Part shown: in pieces, positions 11,791 to 35,880 of the stretch | Layout of the letters: each line of letters starts with the position of its first letter | How positions within the stretch are numbered: the first letter of the stretch is position 1 | DNA from: Pseudomonadota bacterium | GTDB taxonomy: Bacteria; Pseudomonadota; Gammaproteobacteria; Pseudomonadales; Oceanobacteraceae | DNA: 64,000 nucleotides | NCBI GenBank assembly: GCA_030145845.1 | Contig: JAIXHJ010000008.1 | Location: 124,001-188,000 of the forward strand | Direction: 5' to 3' | Translations under genes and position numbers: made by a program | Notes under the pieces: generated by a model | What the model was told of the DNA's origin: nothing | What the model saw: the letters and a program-made list of their open reading frames with translations, nothing else | Databases searched by the model: none

Positions 11791-12630
11791 TCAGCAACCG
11801 CCGGGCTGCCAGTGAATGGCCTGACGGATCAGGTTGCCTTTGCACAGGTTGTTGCCGGTGACTCTGGCCATCCAGTCTTCCGGGCCGAGCAGTTTTTCTG
11901 TGATCTGCGTTGTGTCCAGCCCCTGCTGATGCAGGGTTGCCGCCTGACGGCAGAGGGCCTGCAGATTGTCATATTTTTCCTGCAGCGCGTTACGGCCGTC
12001 TTCGACGATGCCCCGGTGCGGGCAGAACAGAATGTCAAAATCCAGTGTCAGCAGACGGGCCAGACTGTCCATCAGCTGCTGCAGATTTTCGTCTTTGCGC
12101 AGGTATTTCAGCGATTTTGAAATATACATATCGCCGCTGAACAGATATTTCTGCCGCGGCAGATACAGGCAGGTCAGGTCTTTGGCATGTCCCGGTGTGT
12201 GTACCGGCAGCACCGGACTGCCGTCGGCCAGCGTCAGCTGATCGTGCAGCGGCGTGGTCTGTACCGGCCGTGGACTACCCCAGATCATTTTCTGCAGCAG
12301 CGGTGTGCGGTAGCCACTGGCCAGTTTTGCCTGCCCCAGCTGCGGCGCATGCGGCACGATACCACTCAGTGCCGCAATGCGTGCGGCATTACCGCTGTGG
12401 TCTTCGTGGTGGTGAGTAATCAGCAGCTGCCGCAGCGGTGTGTGTTGCCAGTCCTGTTGCAGCACGCGGCGCACATGCCGCCACTGATTGGACGGGCCGG
12501 TATCAATCACCGTGTCGCCGATACGGTAAATGATAAACGTGGTGTTGATCCCCAGGTTAAAGCGTCCCACGCGGGTGCCGAGAACCGTGTCTGTACCGCT
12601 GCCATAACGGTAGTGCCGGCGGATGGTCAT
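11791..12630 (-). CDS. Metallo-beta-lactamase-fold hydrolase
   Basis: 279 residues. The metal motif is ITHHHEDHSGNA (near residue 69), the MBL HxHxDH signature with Glu in place of the second x; further ligands are in VHTPGHAKDLTC and YLFSGDMYIS, and HRGIV near residue 206. The N-terminus VGRFNLGINTTFIIYRIGDTVIDTGPSNQW is the usual first strand pair. Glyoxalase II-like or lactonase-like activity is possible. The gene stands alone, with the DnaA-box region upstream. Confidence 0.85.
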   Translation of the reverse strand: MTIRRHYRYGSGTDTVLGTRVGRFNLGINTTFIIYRIGDTVIDTGPSNQWRHVRRVLQQDWQHTPLRQLLITHHHEDHSGNAARIAALSGIVPHAPQLGQAKLASGYRTPLLQKMIWGSPRPVQTTPLHDQLTLADGSPVLPVHTPGHAKDLTCLYLPRQKYLFSGDMYISKSLKYLRKDENLQQLMDSLARLLTLDFDILFCPHRGIVEDGRNALQEKYDNLQALCRQAATLHQQGLDTTQITEKLLGPEDWMARVTGNNLCKGNLIRQAIHWQPGGC

Positions 12631-12789
12631 AGGGTGCCCTGTTATTGTTACTGTAAGCGCTGCTGAGTATCGGGTTTGCTGAGCGGGTTGTGAATAGCTG
12701 CAAAGCTCAGATGTGATGGCAAATGTGCCGCGCTCTGTTGACTGCCCATCAGTCCGCAGAATATGGGCTATACAGGGGTTATCGTCAGA

Positions 12790-13106
12790 TTATCCACTTG
12801 GTTATCCACAGAATTGTCCGCTGTCGCAGAATTTTGTCCCCATTTCATACTCCTGTCTGATTTCCTGCCAGCAAAAATCTGGTACCTCCGGGCTTGCTTT
12901 CCGCAGACCTTTATGATCCCGGTGACACCCGGCTTACGGCCTGAAATATAAGGTTTTTTTCAAAAAATCTGCGGTGCACAAAAATTAATCGTTTTGTCCG
13001 GCGGGCCGTCGTTATGGCGCTGGCAGCAGTTCCTAATAGTTTGTCCACAAAATTATCCACAGCAACTGTGGGCAACATCAGGCTTGACAGAAAGAAGTTA
13101 TGCACA
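12790..13106 (+). other. Cluster of DnaA boxes with an AT-rich core
   Basis: Five same-strand DnaA-box-like 9-mers lie in 317 bases of gene-free DNA: TTATCCACT 12790-12798, TTATCCACA 12802-12810, TTGTCCACA 13041-13049, TTATCCACA 13053-13061 and TTATGCACA 13098-13106. Three match TTATNCACA exactly. Each of the first two pairs has the same 12-base start-to-start spacing with a 3-base spacer. A degenerate inverted copy TGTGGGCAA is at 13067-13075. Between them is an AT-rich segment (about 12940-13000). No dnaA, gyrB, mnmG or other oriC neighbour is present. It may be an origin remnant, a DnaA-titration (datA-like) or reactivation site, or a DnaA-regulated promoter. Confidence 0.55.
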
Positions 13107-13476
13107 AACTAACGCGGGGGTCTTGACGCTGCTGTAAAGCTTATGATCCGGCGGCAGACCGCGACAGTAATGGCGTGAATAAACAGGCGGAAGTGGCAAT
13201 GACAGGGGAAAGAAAAGAAACAGGCACAGCGGATGGGGCGCTGTGCCTGAATGGAGATTCTGAACTCAGTCTGACTTGCGTCAGTCCGGGAACAGCTCCA
13301 AGGACCGGGATGAAATCTGCAGCTGCCTGATCATACAGCCACAGAAACTCTGCACATCCCTGATGGGAGTGAGCCACCCTCATAGCTCACAGGATTCATA
13401 ATATGCCCCGACGGTTATTTTGTCTCTGCGACAGGATGTCGCACAAATCTGCGCAGCGCCTGCCGGGCATATAACG
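13107..13476. other. Gene-free stretch before the Pho box
   Basis: No open frame here looks coding. An 80-codon minus-strand frame (13141-13383) is low in protein character and contains a terminator hairpin inside it. A minus-strand transcript ending at that hairpin could be a small RNA of up to about 180 bases; this is a guess. Confidence 0.3.
13209..13249 (-). terminator. Intrinsic terminator-like hairpin with no upstream gene
   Basis: CAGGCACAGCG (13221-13231) pairs perfectly with CGCTGTGCCTG (13239-13249) around a 7-base loop. Read on the minus strand the stem is followed by TTTCTTTTCTTT (13220-13209), the form of a Rho-independent terminator. No protein gene is read towards it on that strand, so it could end a small RNA. 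Confidence 0.5.
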
Positions 13477-13498
13477 CTGTCATTATGCGGTCATAAAA
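13477..13498 (+). promoter_or_regulatory. Pho box upstream of phoD
   Basis: CTGTCATTATG followed directly by CGGTCATAAAA: two 11-base direct repeats with the PhoB consensus CTGTCAT-N4-CTGTCAT at one mismatch, followed by the usual A-rich tetrads. It is 110 bases upstream of the phosphatase start codon, so PhoB control under phosphate limitation is likely. A further isolated CTGTCAT is at 13554-13560. Confidence 0.65.
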
Positions 13499-13607
13499 GC
13501 GCAACCTTTCTGCCACTGCTCTGCAATCTAAGCTTAAGCAAACCGCAACCCGGCTGTCATCGCCGGCGCCTTAAATACCGGTCATTCAGACGTTGCCGGA
13601 AACGACC

Positions 13608-15320
13608 ATGCCTCTGACCCGCCGGAATTTTCTGCTGGATTCCACCAGAGCCGCCGCCACTCTGGCCGCCGGCGTCGCTGCTGCCCCCGGGGTCGCAGGC
13701 GCGGCAGACAGCCGTCTGTCACAACCGCGGCTCAGCAGCCGGCAGCATGGCAACAGTTACCCGTTTCAGCATGGTGTGGCCAGTGGTGATCCGCTGACCG
13801 ACCGGGTGATTCTCTGGACCCGCATTACCCCGCCCGCTGACCGTGAGCTGTACAGCATTCCCTATCAGTGGCGCGTCTGTCTCGACCCGCTGTTACGGCA
13901 GCCGCTGGCCAGTGGCAGTGGCGTGACCGGTATGCAGCGTGATTTCACCGTCAAAGTGGATGTCACCGGGCTGCAGCCGGGGCAGACCTATTACTATGCG
14001 TTTGAAGCTCTGGATCATATGTCGGCGGTGGGCCGCACCCGGACGCTGCCGCAGGGACGGGTTGATCATCTGCGCATTGCTTACACCTCCTGCTCCAATT
14101 ACGCCTGGGGCTGTTTCAACGTGTACCGTGAGCTGGCGCAGCGGCCGGATCTGGATGTGATTCTGCATCTGGGCGATTACATCTACGAATACGCCAATCT
14201 GGAACAGAGCCTGAGCACCGGGCGCCTGCATGTGCCGGCGCGGGAAACACTGACACTGGAGGATTACCGCCAGCGTCACGCCTGTTACAAGACGGATAAT
14301 GACCTGCAGGAAGTGCACCGTCAGCATCCTTTCATGGTGATCTGGGATGACCATGAGGTGGCCAACAATGCCTGGCTCGGTGGCGCCGGTAATCACACCG
14401 AAGGCGAAGAAGGACACTGGGATGACCGTCTCAGCGGCGCGGTACAGGCGTACATGGAGTGGATGCCGATCCGTGAGAACGAACGCGGCATTTACCGCAA
14501 TTTCCGTTTCGGTGATCTGCTGGATCTGAATCTGCTGGATACCCGGCTGGCCGGCCGCAACCGGCAGGCGGAAACGCTGGATGAACGCAACAGCACACAG
14601 CGCACCCTGCTGGGGTATGAGCAGGAAGGCTGGCTGGACGAAAAGCTGACGGCCGCGCAGCAGGAAGACATCTGCTGGAAACTGCTCGGTCAGCAGGTGA
14701 TGGTCGGTCAGCTGGGCACCAATGAAACGCCGTTCAATTACGACCAGTGGGACGGCTATCCGGCCGCCCGCCAGCGTCTGTTTGACAGTGTGCGCCGCGC
14801 CGGGGTGGATAACTTCGTCGTGCTCACCGGTGATATTCATTCCAGCTGGGCGATGACCCTGCACGATGACCCGTTTGCTGATGATCCGGGCAAAGCACTG
14901 GGGGTGGAGCTGGTAACGCCGGCGGTCTCCTCGCCGGGTATTGAAAACTACACCCAGGCCAGTCTGGCGGCGGGATCATTGCAACCTCTGCTGCCACATC
15001 TGAATTTTGTCGATTTTTATTACCGCGGTTATGTGCTGCTCGATATCACCCGTGAGCGTATGCAGGCGGAATGGTGGGTGGTGGATAATATTCAGTCGCA
15101 CCGTTATGTCAGTGAATGCCTGAAGGCGCTGGTGGTGCCGGCCGGCGAAGCCGCTTTGCAGCCGGCAGCCGCCCTGACAGCCGCGCGTGCCGCCGCCGCT
15201 CCGGCGCCCGACTTTTCCCCCAGTCTGGCCTGGCTGCGCGACTGGCGCCGTGATACCCCGGTGAGCCTGCCCGACGGAATGCTGGCCCAGAACGGCGTCG
15301 AGGCCGCTTCCTCACTGTAA
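13608..15320 (+). CDS. phoD: PhoD-family alkaline phosphatase/phosphodiesterase, Tat-exported
   Basis: From the ATG at 13608 the product has 570 residues; a TTG five codons upstream is possible but the ATG puts the Tat signal TRRNFLL at residues 4-10. Export by the Tat system is expected, with cleavage near GVAGAAD. After a beta-sandwich domain (HGVASGDPLTDRVILWTRI) come the metal centre segments TSCSNYAWG, LHLGDYIYEYA, VIWDDHEVANNAW and VLTGDIHSSWA, typical of the Fe/Ca-dependent PhoD family that releases phosphate from mono- and diesters. The tail is Ala-rich. A Pho box lies upstream. Periplasmic or extracellular. Confidence 0.93.
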   Translation: MPLTRRNFLLDSTRAAATLAAGVAAAPGVAGAADSRLSQPRLSSRQHGNSYPFQHGVASGDPLTDRVILWTRITPPADRELYSIPYQWRVCLDPLLRQPLASGSGVTGMQRDFTVKVDVTGLQPGQTYYYAFEALDHMSAVGRTRTLPQGRVDHLRIAYTSCSNYAWGCFNVYRELAQRPDLDVILHLGDYIYEYANLEQSLSTGRLHVPARETLTLEDYRQRHACYKTDNDLQEVHRQHPFMVIWDDHEVANNAWLGGAGNHTEGEEGHWDDRLSGAVQAYMEWMPIRENERGIYRNFRFGDLLDLNLLDTRLAGRNRQAETLDERNSTQRTLLGYEQEGWLDEKLTAAQQEDICWKLLGQQVMVGQLGTNETPFNYDQWDGYPAARQRLFDSVRRAGVDNFVVLTGDIHSSWAMTLHDDPFADDPGKALGVELVTPAVSSPGIENYTQASLAAGSLQPLLPHLNFVDFYYRGYVLLDITRERMQAEWWVVDNIQSHRYVSECLKALVVPAGEAALQPAAALTAARAAAAPAPDFSPSLAWLRDWRRDTPVSLPDGMLAQNGVEAASSL

Positions 15321-34902: not shown

Positions 34903-35880
34903 TCAGGGCAGCTGGTGGCGGGAGTGGGCGCTGCTGAAATCCAGCTGCGGGCCGGCAGGAATGATCCCGGTGGGATTGATGTTCTTATGGCTGAAGTAAT
35001 AGTGGCGCTTGATATGTTCCATATTCACGGTCTCAGCAATGCCCGGATACTGATACAGATCGCGCACAAAACCTGACAGCGCGGGGTAGTCGGCGATGCG
35101 TTTTAAATTGCATTTGAAGTGGCCGACGTAGACGGCATCAAAGCGGATCAGCGTGGTAAACAGGCGCCAGTCCGCTTCTGTCAGGTGACTGGTGCCGTTG
35201 TCATCGGTGACCAGCCAGCGCTGCGCTGTTAACCGCTGCTCCAGCCAGTCGAGGGTGGTAAACAGTTGGTCAAATGCCTGCTGATATTTTTCCTGGCTGG
35301 TGGCGAAACCGGCTTTATACACACCATTATTCACGCTGTGATAAACGCGCTCATTGATGGCATCAATCTGCTGCTGCAGTGCTGGCGGATAAAAATCCAG
35401 CGCGTTACCGGTGAGGCCGTTAAACGCTGAATTAAACATGCGGATAATTTCTGAGGATTCGTTGCTGACGATGCTGGCGGTCTGTTTATCCCACAGCACC
35501 GGTACGGTCACACGGCCGCTGTAGGTGGCGTCATGACGGGTATAAATCTGATGCAGGTATTGCGACTGATACAGGGCATCGCCACTGCTGCCGTTGCCAC
35601 TGTCAAAGGTCCAGCCCTGCTCCAGCATATCGGTGGCGACCACGGAGACGCTGATATGCGCGCTGAGATTTTTCAGTTCGCGGAAAATCAGGGTGCGGTG
35701 CGCCCACGGGCAGGCGAGCGAAACATACAGATGATAGCGGCCGCTGTCGGCGGCAAAGCCCGTGCTTCCATCGGCGCTGATCCAGTTTCTCAGTCTGGCA
35801 TCTTCGCGCTCAAAGGCGCCGCCGCAGGCGGCGGTGTCGTACCACTGATCGTGCCATTGGCCTTTTACCAGTAAGCCCAT
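34903..35880 (-). CDS. yqjG: Glutathionyl-hydroquinone reductase (YqjG/Xi-class GST)
   Basis: 325 residues, family length. The redox cysteine is in SLACPWAHRTLIFR (near residue 57), the Xi-class CPWA motif. VPVLWDKQTASIVSNESSEIIRMFN, YKAGFATSQEKYQQA, LTEADWRLFTTLIRFDAVY and HIKRHYYFSHKNINPTGIIP are further signatures. It reduces glutathionyl-hydroquinones with glutathione, in quinone detoxification. Single gene. Confidence 0.94.
   Translation of the reverse strand: MGLLVKGQWHDQWYDTAACGGAFEREDARLRNWISADGSTGFAADSGRYHLYVSLACPWAHRTLIFRELKNLSAHISVSVVATDMLEQGWTFDSGNGSSGDALYQSQYLHQIYTRHDATYSGRVTVPVLWDKQTASIVSNESSEIIRMFNSAFNGLTGNALDFYPPALQQQIDAINERVYHSVNNGVYKAGFATSQEKYQQAFDQLFTTLDWLEQRLTAQRWLVTDDNGTSHLTEADWRLFTTLIRFDAVYVGHFKCNLKRIADYPALSGFVRDLYQYPGIAETVNMEHIKRHYYFSHKNINPTGIIPAGPQLDFSSAHSRHQLP

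Follow-up and report, generated by a model that had tools for sequence, protein, structure and literature searches.

An intergenic cluster of DnaA boxes at positions 12790-13106 of the window (the whole stretch of 64,000 nucleotides analysed here, G000:C8:124001-188000, from a genome of 4.08 Mb in 24 contigs) is, with a probability of roughly 0.7, a DnaA-reactivating site of the DARS type, made up of a tandem pair of units, the right one being intact. The case draws on the geometry of the boxes, their conservation in relatives, their independence from neighbouring genes, their distance from the origin, a Fis-type site at a fixed distance and a family of similar units throughout the class. In the accessible parts of the papers, DARS elements are described as a core of boxes I-III, with box I opposite to boxes II and III and with equal spacing in DARS1 and DARS2 (PMC5742627), and the head-to-head boxes I and II are called characteristic of these sites and essential for them (PMC10380432).

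A box scan of the window places exact copies of TTATNCACA on the plus strand at 12802, 13053 and 13098, and boxes with a single mismatch on the same strand at 12790 (TTATCCACT) and 13041 (TTGTCCACA). The pairs 12790/12802 and 13041/13053 have the same start spacing of 12 bases and the same spacer of 3 bases, and an A/T-rich stretch (about 12940-12995) lies between them. The five boxes, their strand and the two spacings are exactly as claimed in an earlier reading made from the sequence alone. We simulated 60 first-order Markov sequences of 64 kb and counted boxes with up to one mismatch, on one strand, in 317 bases. The maximum was 1 box in 7 runs, 2 in 47, 3 in 5 and 4 in 1, and none of the 60 reached the 5 found on the plus strand of the real window, whose minus strand gives a best count of 3. 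Over the whole window there are 61 boxes at up to one mismatch versus 32.6 expected, and genome-wide the exact TTATNCACA occurs 168 times versus 36 for the pattern read backwards. Since single boxes are common genome-wide, it is their arrangement, rather than the individual boxes, that is special. The tandem-pair pattern TTATCCACNNNNTTATCCACA, allowing up to 2 mismatches, is found 10 times in the genome and never in the reversed control, and its only exact match is 12790-12810. The earlier remark that no comparable cluster was noticed elsewhere in the window needs a small correction, as a further 12-base tandem pair of weaker boxes (TTATACACA CCA TTATTCACG) starts at 35315 and 35327 (35315-35335). 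This second pair sits within a minus-strand ORF (34903-35880). A repeat search detected a single family of direct repeats, formed by the boxes, and nothing inverted. A reading as an RNA gene was dropped, since an Rfam scan of the window gave no match above the gathering score.

The right unit (13041-13075) consists of box III (TTGTCCACA, 13041-13049, plus strand), box II (TTATCCACA, 13053-13061, plus strand) and an inverted box I (13067-13075, minus strand; TGTGGGCAA, i.e. TTGCCCACA), which was overlooked in the earlier reading, is the defining feature of the element and stands head-to-head with box II across a spacer of 5 bp. Its spacers of 3 and 5 are those of DARS1 and DARS2, and boxes III, II and I have 1, 0 and 2 mismatches to TTWTNCACA. 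The left unit has box III (TTATCCACT, 12790-12798, plus strand; aligned in 10 genomes) and box II (TTATCCACA, 12802-12810, plus strand; identical in all 10 aligned genomes) but lacks the full DARS core, box I being lost in the source genome, where its place (12816-12824, minus strand) holds the decayed GTCCGCTGT. According to the ten-sequence alignment this box I is also decayed in G001, G005 and G007, and is of the TGTGGA type in G002, G003, G004, G006, G008 and G013. The left half is therefore best taken as a second, partly decayed unit, the two 12-base pairs being the III-II pairs of two tandem units. Between the units lie the motif TTTTGTCCCCA (12832-12842; TTTGTCCCCA in 8 of the 10 aligned genomes and in a second copy of the element, e2), a weak IHF-like 13-mer with 2 mismatches (12934-12946, minus strand; at -119 of the right-unit box II), a conserved A/T block seen in the alignment (CCTGAAATATAAGGTTTTTTTCAAAAAATC, 12940-12969) and a Fis-type 15-mer (GCACAAAAATTAATC, 12976-12990) starting 77 bp before the right-unit box II. 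No exact IHF consensus was found within 12741-13120. The element ends in an extra DnaA box (TTATGCACA, 13098-13106, plus strand), identical in 10 of 10 genomes and preceded by a TTGACA (13084-13089) that is equally invariant.

The core of E. coli DARS1, TAATACACA-TGG-TTATCCACA-GGAAT-AGTGGATAA, has spacings equal to those of the right unit. For DARS2, the available part of PMC4585315 gives the primers of a deletion that replaces boxes I-III; between the primer arms are exactly 35 bp, TTCTTCACA-ACT-CTATCCACA-GAAAA-GGTGAATAA, again III-3-II-5-I, and we located this core at L102:1136-1170. We built a profile of 139 positions from 10 + 3 sequences (R1), which scores DARS1 at 21.4 bits (E 5e-5, with a 29-nt length difference) and the DARS2 region weakly, at 12.5 bits (E 0.03). 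DARS1 (bioD-uvrB) resembles the element in its III-3-II-5-I core, in being intergenic and away from oriC, and in a GTTAAAAAATA block upstream, as read by eye; it differs in having one unit instead of two, an upstream block 29 nt further out than in R1 and no Fis consensus within 250 bp upstream. DARS2 (rppH-mutH region) shares the III-3-II-5-I core and has consensus matches for both Fis and IHF beyond box III. Its nearest IHF-like 13-mers (1 mismatch) stand at -83 and -99, with a third at -336, and its Fis match is at -137. The element has the swapped order, with Fis at -77 and an IHF-like site farther from the core, at -119 in the window and near -110 class-wide, and the tandem double units are a further difference from DARS2. 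In E. coli, DARS2 needs both IHF and Fis, and their positions matter, as stated in the available portion of PMC4245941. The earlier proposal of a datA- or DARS-like control site is thus supported in its second form, by head-to-head boxes I and II 5 bp apart with a tandem box III 3 bp away. Against it, in the window, are the absent left box I, the two mismatches of the right box I and the weak IHF-like site with its two mismatches. The modest R1 scores of the E. coli sites, and a Fis consensus that is missing upstream of DARS1 and differently placed in DARS2, count against it as well.

A datA-like site or plain titration sink, whose boxes would hold DnaA or promote ATP hydrolysis and so delay initiation, is the rival that fares best, and we consider it unlikely. 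It would suit a multi-box locus that three complete genomes place 0.30-0.57 Mb from dnaA, a distance similar to that of E. coli datA, as well as the extra conserved TTATGCACA and the tandem pairs; moreover, R1 scores the datA region at 14 bits, which is weak but above its score for DARS2. Clusters of DnaA boxes outside oriC that repress initiation are also described for B. subtilis and Streptomyces in the accessible part of PMC5742627. Like the element, datA and these clusters consist of DnaA boxes outside oriC in non-coding DNA, but a conserved head-to-head I/II pair, characteristic of DARS in the available text of PMC10380432, is not among the features described for them in the portions consulted, and their effect on initiation is the opposite. 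In datA, DnaA boxes lie on both sides of a single IHF site and ATP hydrolysis is stimulated; the window element has no exact IHF consensus, and exact spacings with a fixed upstream 15-mer would be unnecessary for a mere sink.

The DARS-type reading is also favoured by the behaviour of the locus in relatives. A blastn search with 12560-13640 against 55 genomes (54 relatives and the source genome) gave matches in 8 of 8 same-genus genomes and in one further genus (G013). The match covers part of the box region in G002, G003, G004, G005, G006, G008 and G013; in G001 and G007 it covers the flank only, and a box scan of their loci recovers the boxes. In the ten-genome alignment left box II and the last box are 297 bp apart in 7 genomes, 296 in the window and 295 and 306 in the others, and all ten share the A/T block, TTGACA, left box II TTATCCACA and the terminal TTATGCACA. 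The boxes are therefore conserved in orthologous intergenic regions, a point on which the sequence-only reading had staked its proposal. That reading had also named the neighbours correctly, as Pfam gives a metallo-beta-lactamase superfamily gene (11791-12630, minus strand) and a PhoD-like phosphatase gene (13593-15320, plus strand); both are outside the element, which is located between ORFs and is non-coding. Other genes stand between the element and the metallo-beta-lactamase gene or phoD in G002, G003, G005, G006 and G008, and nothing related to any window protein is encoded in the 20 kb surrounding the copy in G013. Since the element sequence stays constant while the flanking genes change, it would seem to be conserved for its own sake. 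A strong R1 match (89-100 bits) was found in 4 of 33 named loci around phoD (of 34; L157 omitted), all four in records corresponding to same-genus genomes.

Two further features were seen between the element and phoD. A second conserved non-coding block (13355-13453; GCCACCCTCATAGCTCAC ... TGCGACAGGATGTCGCA), aligned in 8 genomes including the source genome, shows two inverted repeats by eye, one of them with a GGA loop; it is kilobases away from phoD in several relatives and is possibly a small RNA or a regulator site. A strong terminator-like hairpin on the minus strand (13221-13249, 11 pairs, CAGGCACAGCG), upstream of phoD, falls within an 80-aa minus-strand ORF, with no evident gene ending there.

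The changing neighbourhood bears directly on whether the boxes could form a DnaA-regulated promoter of an adjacent gene, to which the TTGACA at 13084 beside TTATGCACA would belong. The invariance of this hexamer in 10 of 10 genomes suits such a promoter, and DnaA is known as a transcription regulator (PMC8203912, in its available part). We find the idea very improbable and dropped it, since the element persists next to different genes in different genomes; in addition, a simple promoter scan calls no site in 12780-13110, and members of the same family adjoin unrelated genes elsewhere in the source genome.

For the position of the locus relative to the origin, we used the complete genome of a relative (G003); this genome of 4.068 Mb carries dnaA at 1 kb and the element at 3.513 Mb, about 0.56 Mb apart. 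GC skew was sampled in 20 stretches of it; all 10 between 20 kb and 1.84 Mb are positive and all 10 between 2.02 and 3.84 Mb negative, so that the skew flips across dnaA and near 1.9-2.0 Mb, while the element locus (3.51 Mb) lies between negative samples. The comparison of skew and dnaA that had been proposed for this locus thus puts the switch at dnaA, away from the orthologous locus. Further, none of 17 dnaA loci gives an R1 match at E<=1; 10 of these loci extend upstream of the gene, and the remaining 7 have it at the record start. The source genome's own rpmH-dnaA region has its own DnaA boxes. An active, ectopic or relic (ancestral) replication origin, in favour of which the boxes adjoin an A/T-rich stretch, is accordingly the least credible of the readings, the element having neither the GC-skew switch nor the dnaA neighbourhood of an oriC, no R1 counterpart at the 17 dnaA loci and several related copies per genome, and oriC identity was dropped on account of the GC skew in G003. 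The location suits the DARS-type reading, being non-coding and between oriC and terminus, without a skew flip. In three complete genomes of the same family (G003, G004 and G018) the element is at 0.21-0.29 of the replichore, 0.30-0.57 Mb from dnaA, which is closer to the origin than the two E. coli DARS sites are and speaks against that reading.

The source genome holds further members of the family. The second copy, at G000:C13:93.1-93.7 kb, has the common A/T block and a TTACCCACAGAATCTGTGG core, and R1 at E<=1 gives 9 matches in all: both halves of element 1, both halves of element 2, three further loci on C2 and two matches to the A/T block only. As to their surroundings, the units at C13:93.3 and 93.6 kb (L096) lie between thioredoxin-fold (dsbC-like) and pseudouridine-synthase genes, by Pfam; with genes named by eye, the unit at C2:425.3 kb (L099) lies between Na/Pi-cotransporter-like and pfkB-kinase-like genes, and those at C2:344.6 kb (L098) and C2:315.2 kb (L097) are beside an argS-like and an ilvD-like gene. 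R1 also has matches in all 44 family genomes (E<=0.05) and in 231 of 244 of the order (E<=0.01), both counts including the source and other training genomes, in 187 of 229 genomes of Gammaproteobacteria (E<=0.01, source genome included) and in 26 of 26 complete genomes (E<=0.02); at E<=0.01, 13 of the 244 order genomes and 42 of the 229 class genomes gave none. The reversed profile matched in 4 of 229 class genomes, all at E>0.005, and once, at E 0.001, in 35 loci, and evenly spaced stretches of G003, 400 kb in total, gave no match to R1 itself at E<=10. Similar box density at many unrelated loci had been named as an outcome that would speak against a dedicated site. This outcome was seen in part, but the loci from the tandem-pair and profile searches belong to the same family. 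A separate observation concerns the complete genome G071, where two distant loci (L278 and L279) have the same core together with the same upstream stretch, and a third (L283) is related; the unit there may sit in a dispersed repeat.

We tallied chromosomal positions in the 26 complete genomes from the 56 best of the listed R1 matches (E up to 1.4e-6), which correspond to 49 loci, taking the size of 24 of the 26 genomes to the nearest 0.1 Mb. Forty of the 49 loci are oriented with the fork (binomial p 9e-6, a value that is too small as related genomes are not independent). Their median replichore position is 0.57, with one locus in the first tenth, and the distribution is not uniform (KS p 8e-4, again too small owing to kinship among the loci).

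The anatomy of the unit was analysed in 109 matches at E<=0.001 from 90 chosen loci, a non-random sample, from which 18 rows of training loci were removed to leave 91, several of them from related genomes. In these 91 non-training units, boxes III, II and I differ from TTWTNCACA by at most 1 mismatch in 66, 91 and 79 cases, respectively, and the class consensus is AAAATAnnGATTTTTT..TGGTTAAAAAATGAnCAATTTG..TTATCCACAnAGTTATCCACAGATTCTGTGGATAA. Fis sites were scored with a degenerate consensus that we take to be GNNYRNNWNNYRNNC. The Fis consensus is a 15-mer in the available part of PMC4245941. It was matched 68-86 bp before box II in 62 of the 91, as a consensus match only, with 46 matches at 78 and 13 at 77 (59 in total), compared to 0-2 in equal windows alongside and to a mean of 2.6 and a maximum of 9 in the shuffle control, but R1 was trained on the upstream motif, so matches found with it are biased towards a Fis-type motif. 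We therefore also used a core-only set, 26 hand-picked loci (25 from the R1 lists plus the source genome's e5) in which R1 aligned to the core only; it leaves out L293, a core-only match, and L294-L297, which are single-box stretches. Here the Fis consensus is at 77 or 78 in 15 of 26 versus 0.9 expected, and 11 are without it at that place. These 15 represent about five lineages and are not independent: 8 are from the genus of the source genome and orthologue-like, 3 from G071, 2 from one genus (G223 and G243) and 2 are single. In all 15 the centre is T-rich instead of A-rich, the motif being inverted, as read by eye. Since the motif at -78 keeps its place when turned round, it suits a symmetric protein such as Fis.

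IHF was considered for the same motif and dropped, as e1 and e2 have no exact IHF consensus and the G/C-ended 15-mer persists with its A/T tract inverted, as a dyad site such as that of Fis would. A site resembling that of IHF does occur further out. With the 13-mer consensus presumed to be WATCARNNNNTTR, a site with up to 1 mismatch is found on the minus strand 108-112 before box II in 63 of the 91 units, 25 of them perfect (shuffle control: mean 2.2, maximum 9), and the TTR half of this 13-mer falls outside R1. It is seen in 4 of 18 training units and 3 of 26 core-only units. The window's own site is thus less well matched, and at -119 instead of about -110, than the site found class-wide.

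By extension from E. coli DARS1 and DARS2, we would expect DnaA binding, ADP release and control by Fis and IHF at the element. ADP-DnaA left after replication would bind boxes III, II and I; the head-to-head pair of DnaA molecules on II and I would be forced into contact through their AAA+ domains and release ADP; and apo-DnaA would then depart and take up ATP, so that the ATP-DnaA level rises before oriC next initiates. Fis, bound as a dimer to the 15-mer that starts 77 bp upstream, and IHF further upstream could bend the DNA and gate the reaction. The source genome has a second, Hda-sized Bac_DnaA match, so that a reactivation route would make sense there. In G004, a 258-aa frame at C1:1572151-1572594 (L057) matches Bac_DnaA strongly, its 75.6 bits being well above the scores of the Hda-sized matches in the other genomes.

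DARS-like sequences in many Proteobacteria are said to have been reported by Fujimitsu in 2009. Sequences similar to DARS1 and DARS2 in many proteobacterial species are mentioned, with its reference 91, in the accessible part of PMC10380432, that of PMC4245941 calls the DARS2 core specific to gammaproteobacteria related to E. coli, and the sites studied, in the literature consulted in part, are those of E. coli and close relatives. Since DARS-like sequences have already been reported in many proteobacteria, cores elsewhere are not new. The partial texts hold no description that we could find of a tandem double unit, a fixed Fis-type site at -77/-78 or class-wide counts, and titles and abstract starts gave nothing on DARS in Pseudomonas or other non-enterics, a scope that excludes most subscription papers and is no proof of absence. 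We therefore regard the element as a known kind of site whose architecture and breadth are new.

At about even odds, we propose that the ancestral DARS of Gammaproteobacteria was a III-II-I core with a Fis dyad site at -77/-78, in either orientation, often with an IHF site some 30 bp beyond it, that each genome has this unit at several loci (five here), in some cases doubled in tandem and for the most part following the direction of the fork, and that E. coli DARS1 and DARS2 are derived, rearranged forms. With a unit that can be searched for, and that has Fis and IHF at fixed positions in most of the sampled families, one could test the ancestry of DnaA reactivation by chromosomal loci, the reason why genomes hold more than one copy at particular distances from the origin, and the way in which Fis might link initiation to growth phase in non-enterics, the R1 loci being deletable sites in tractable non-enteric hosts.
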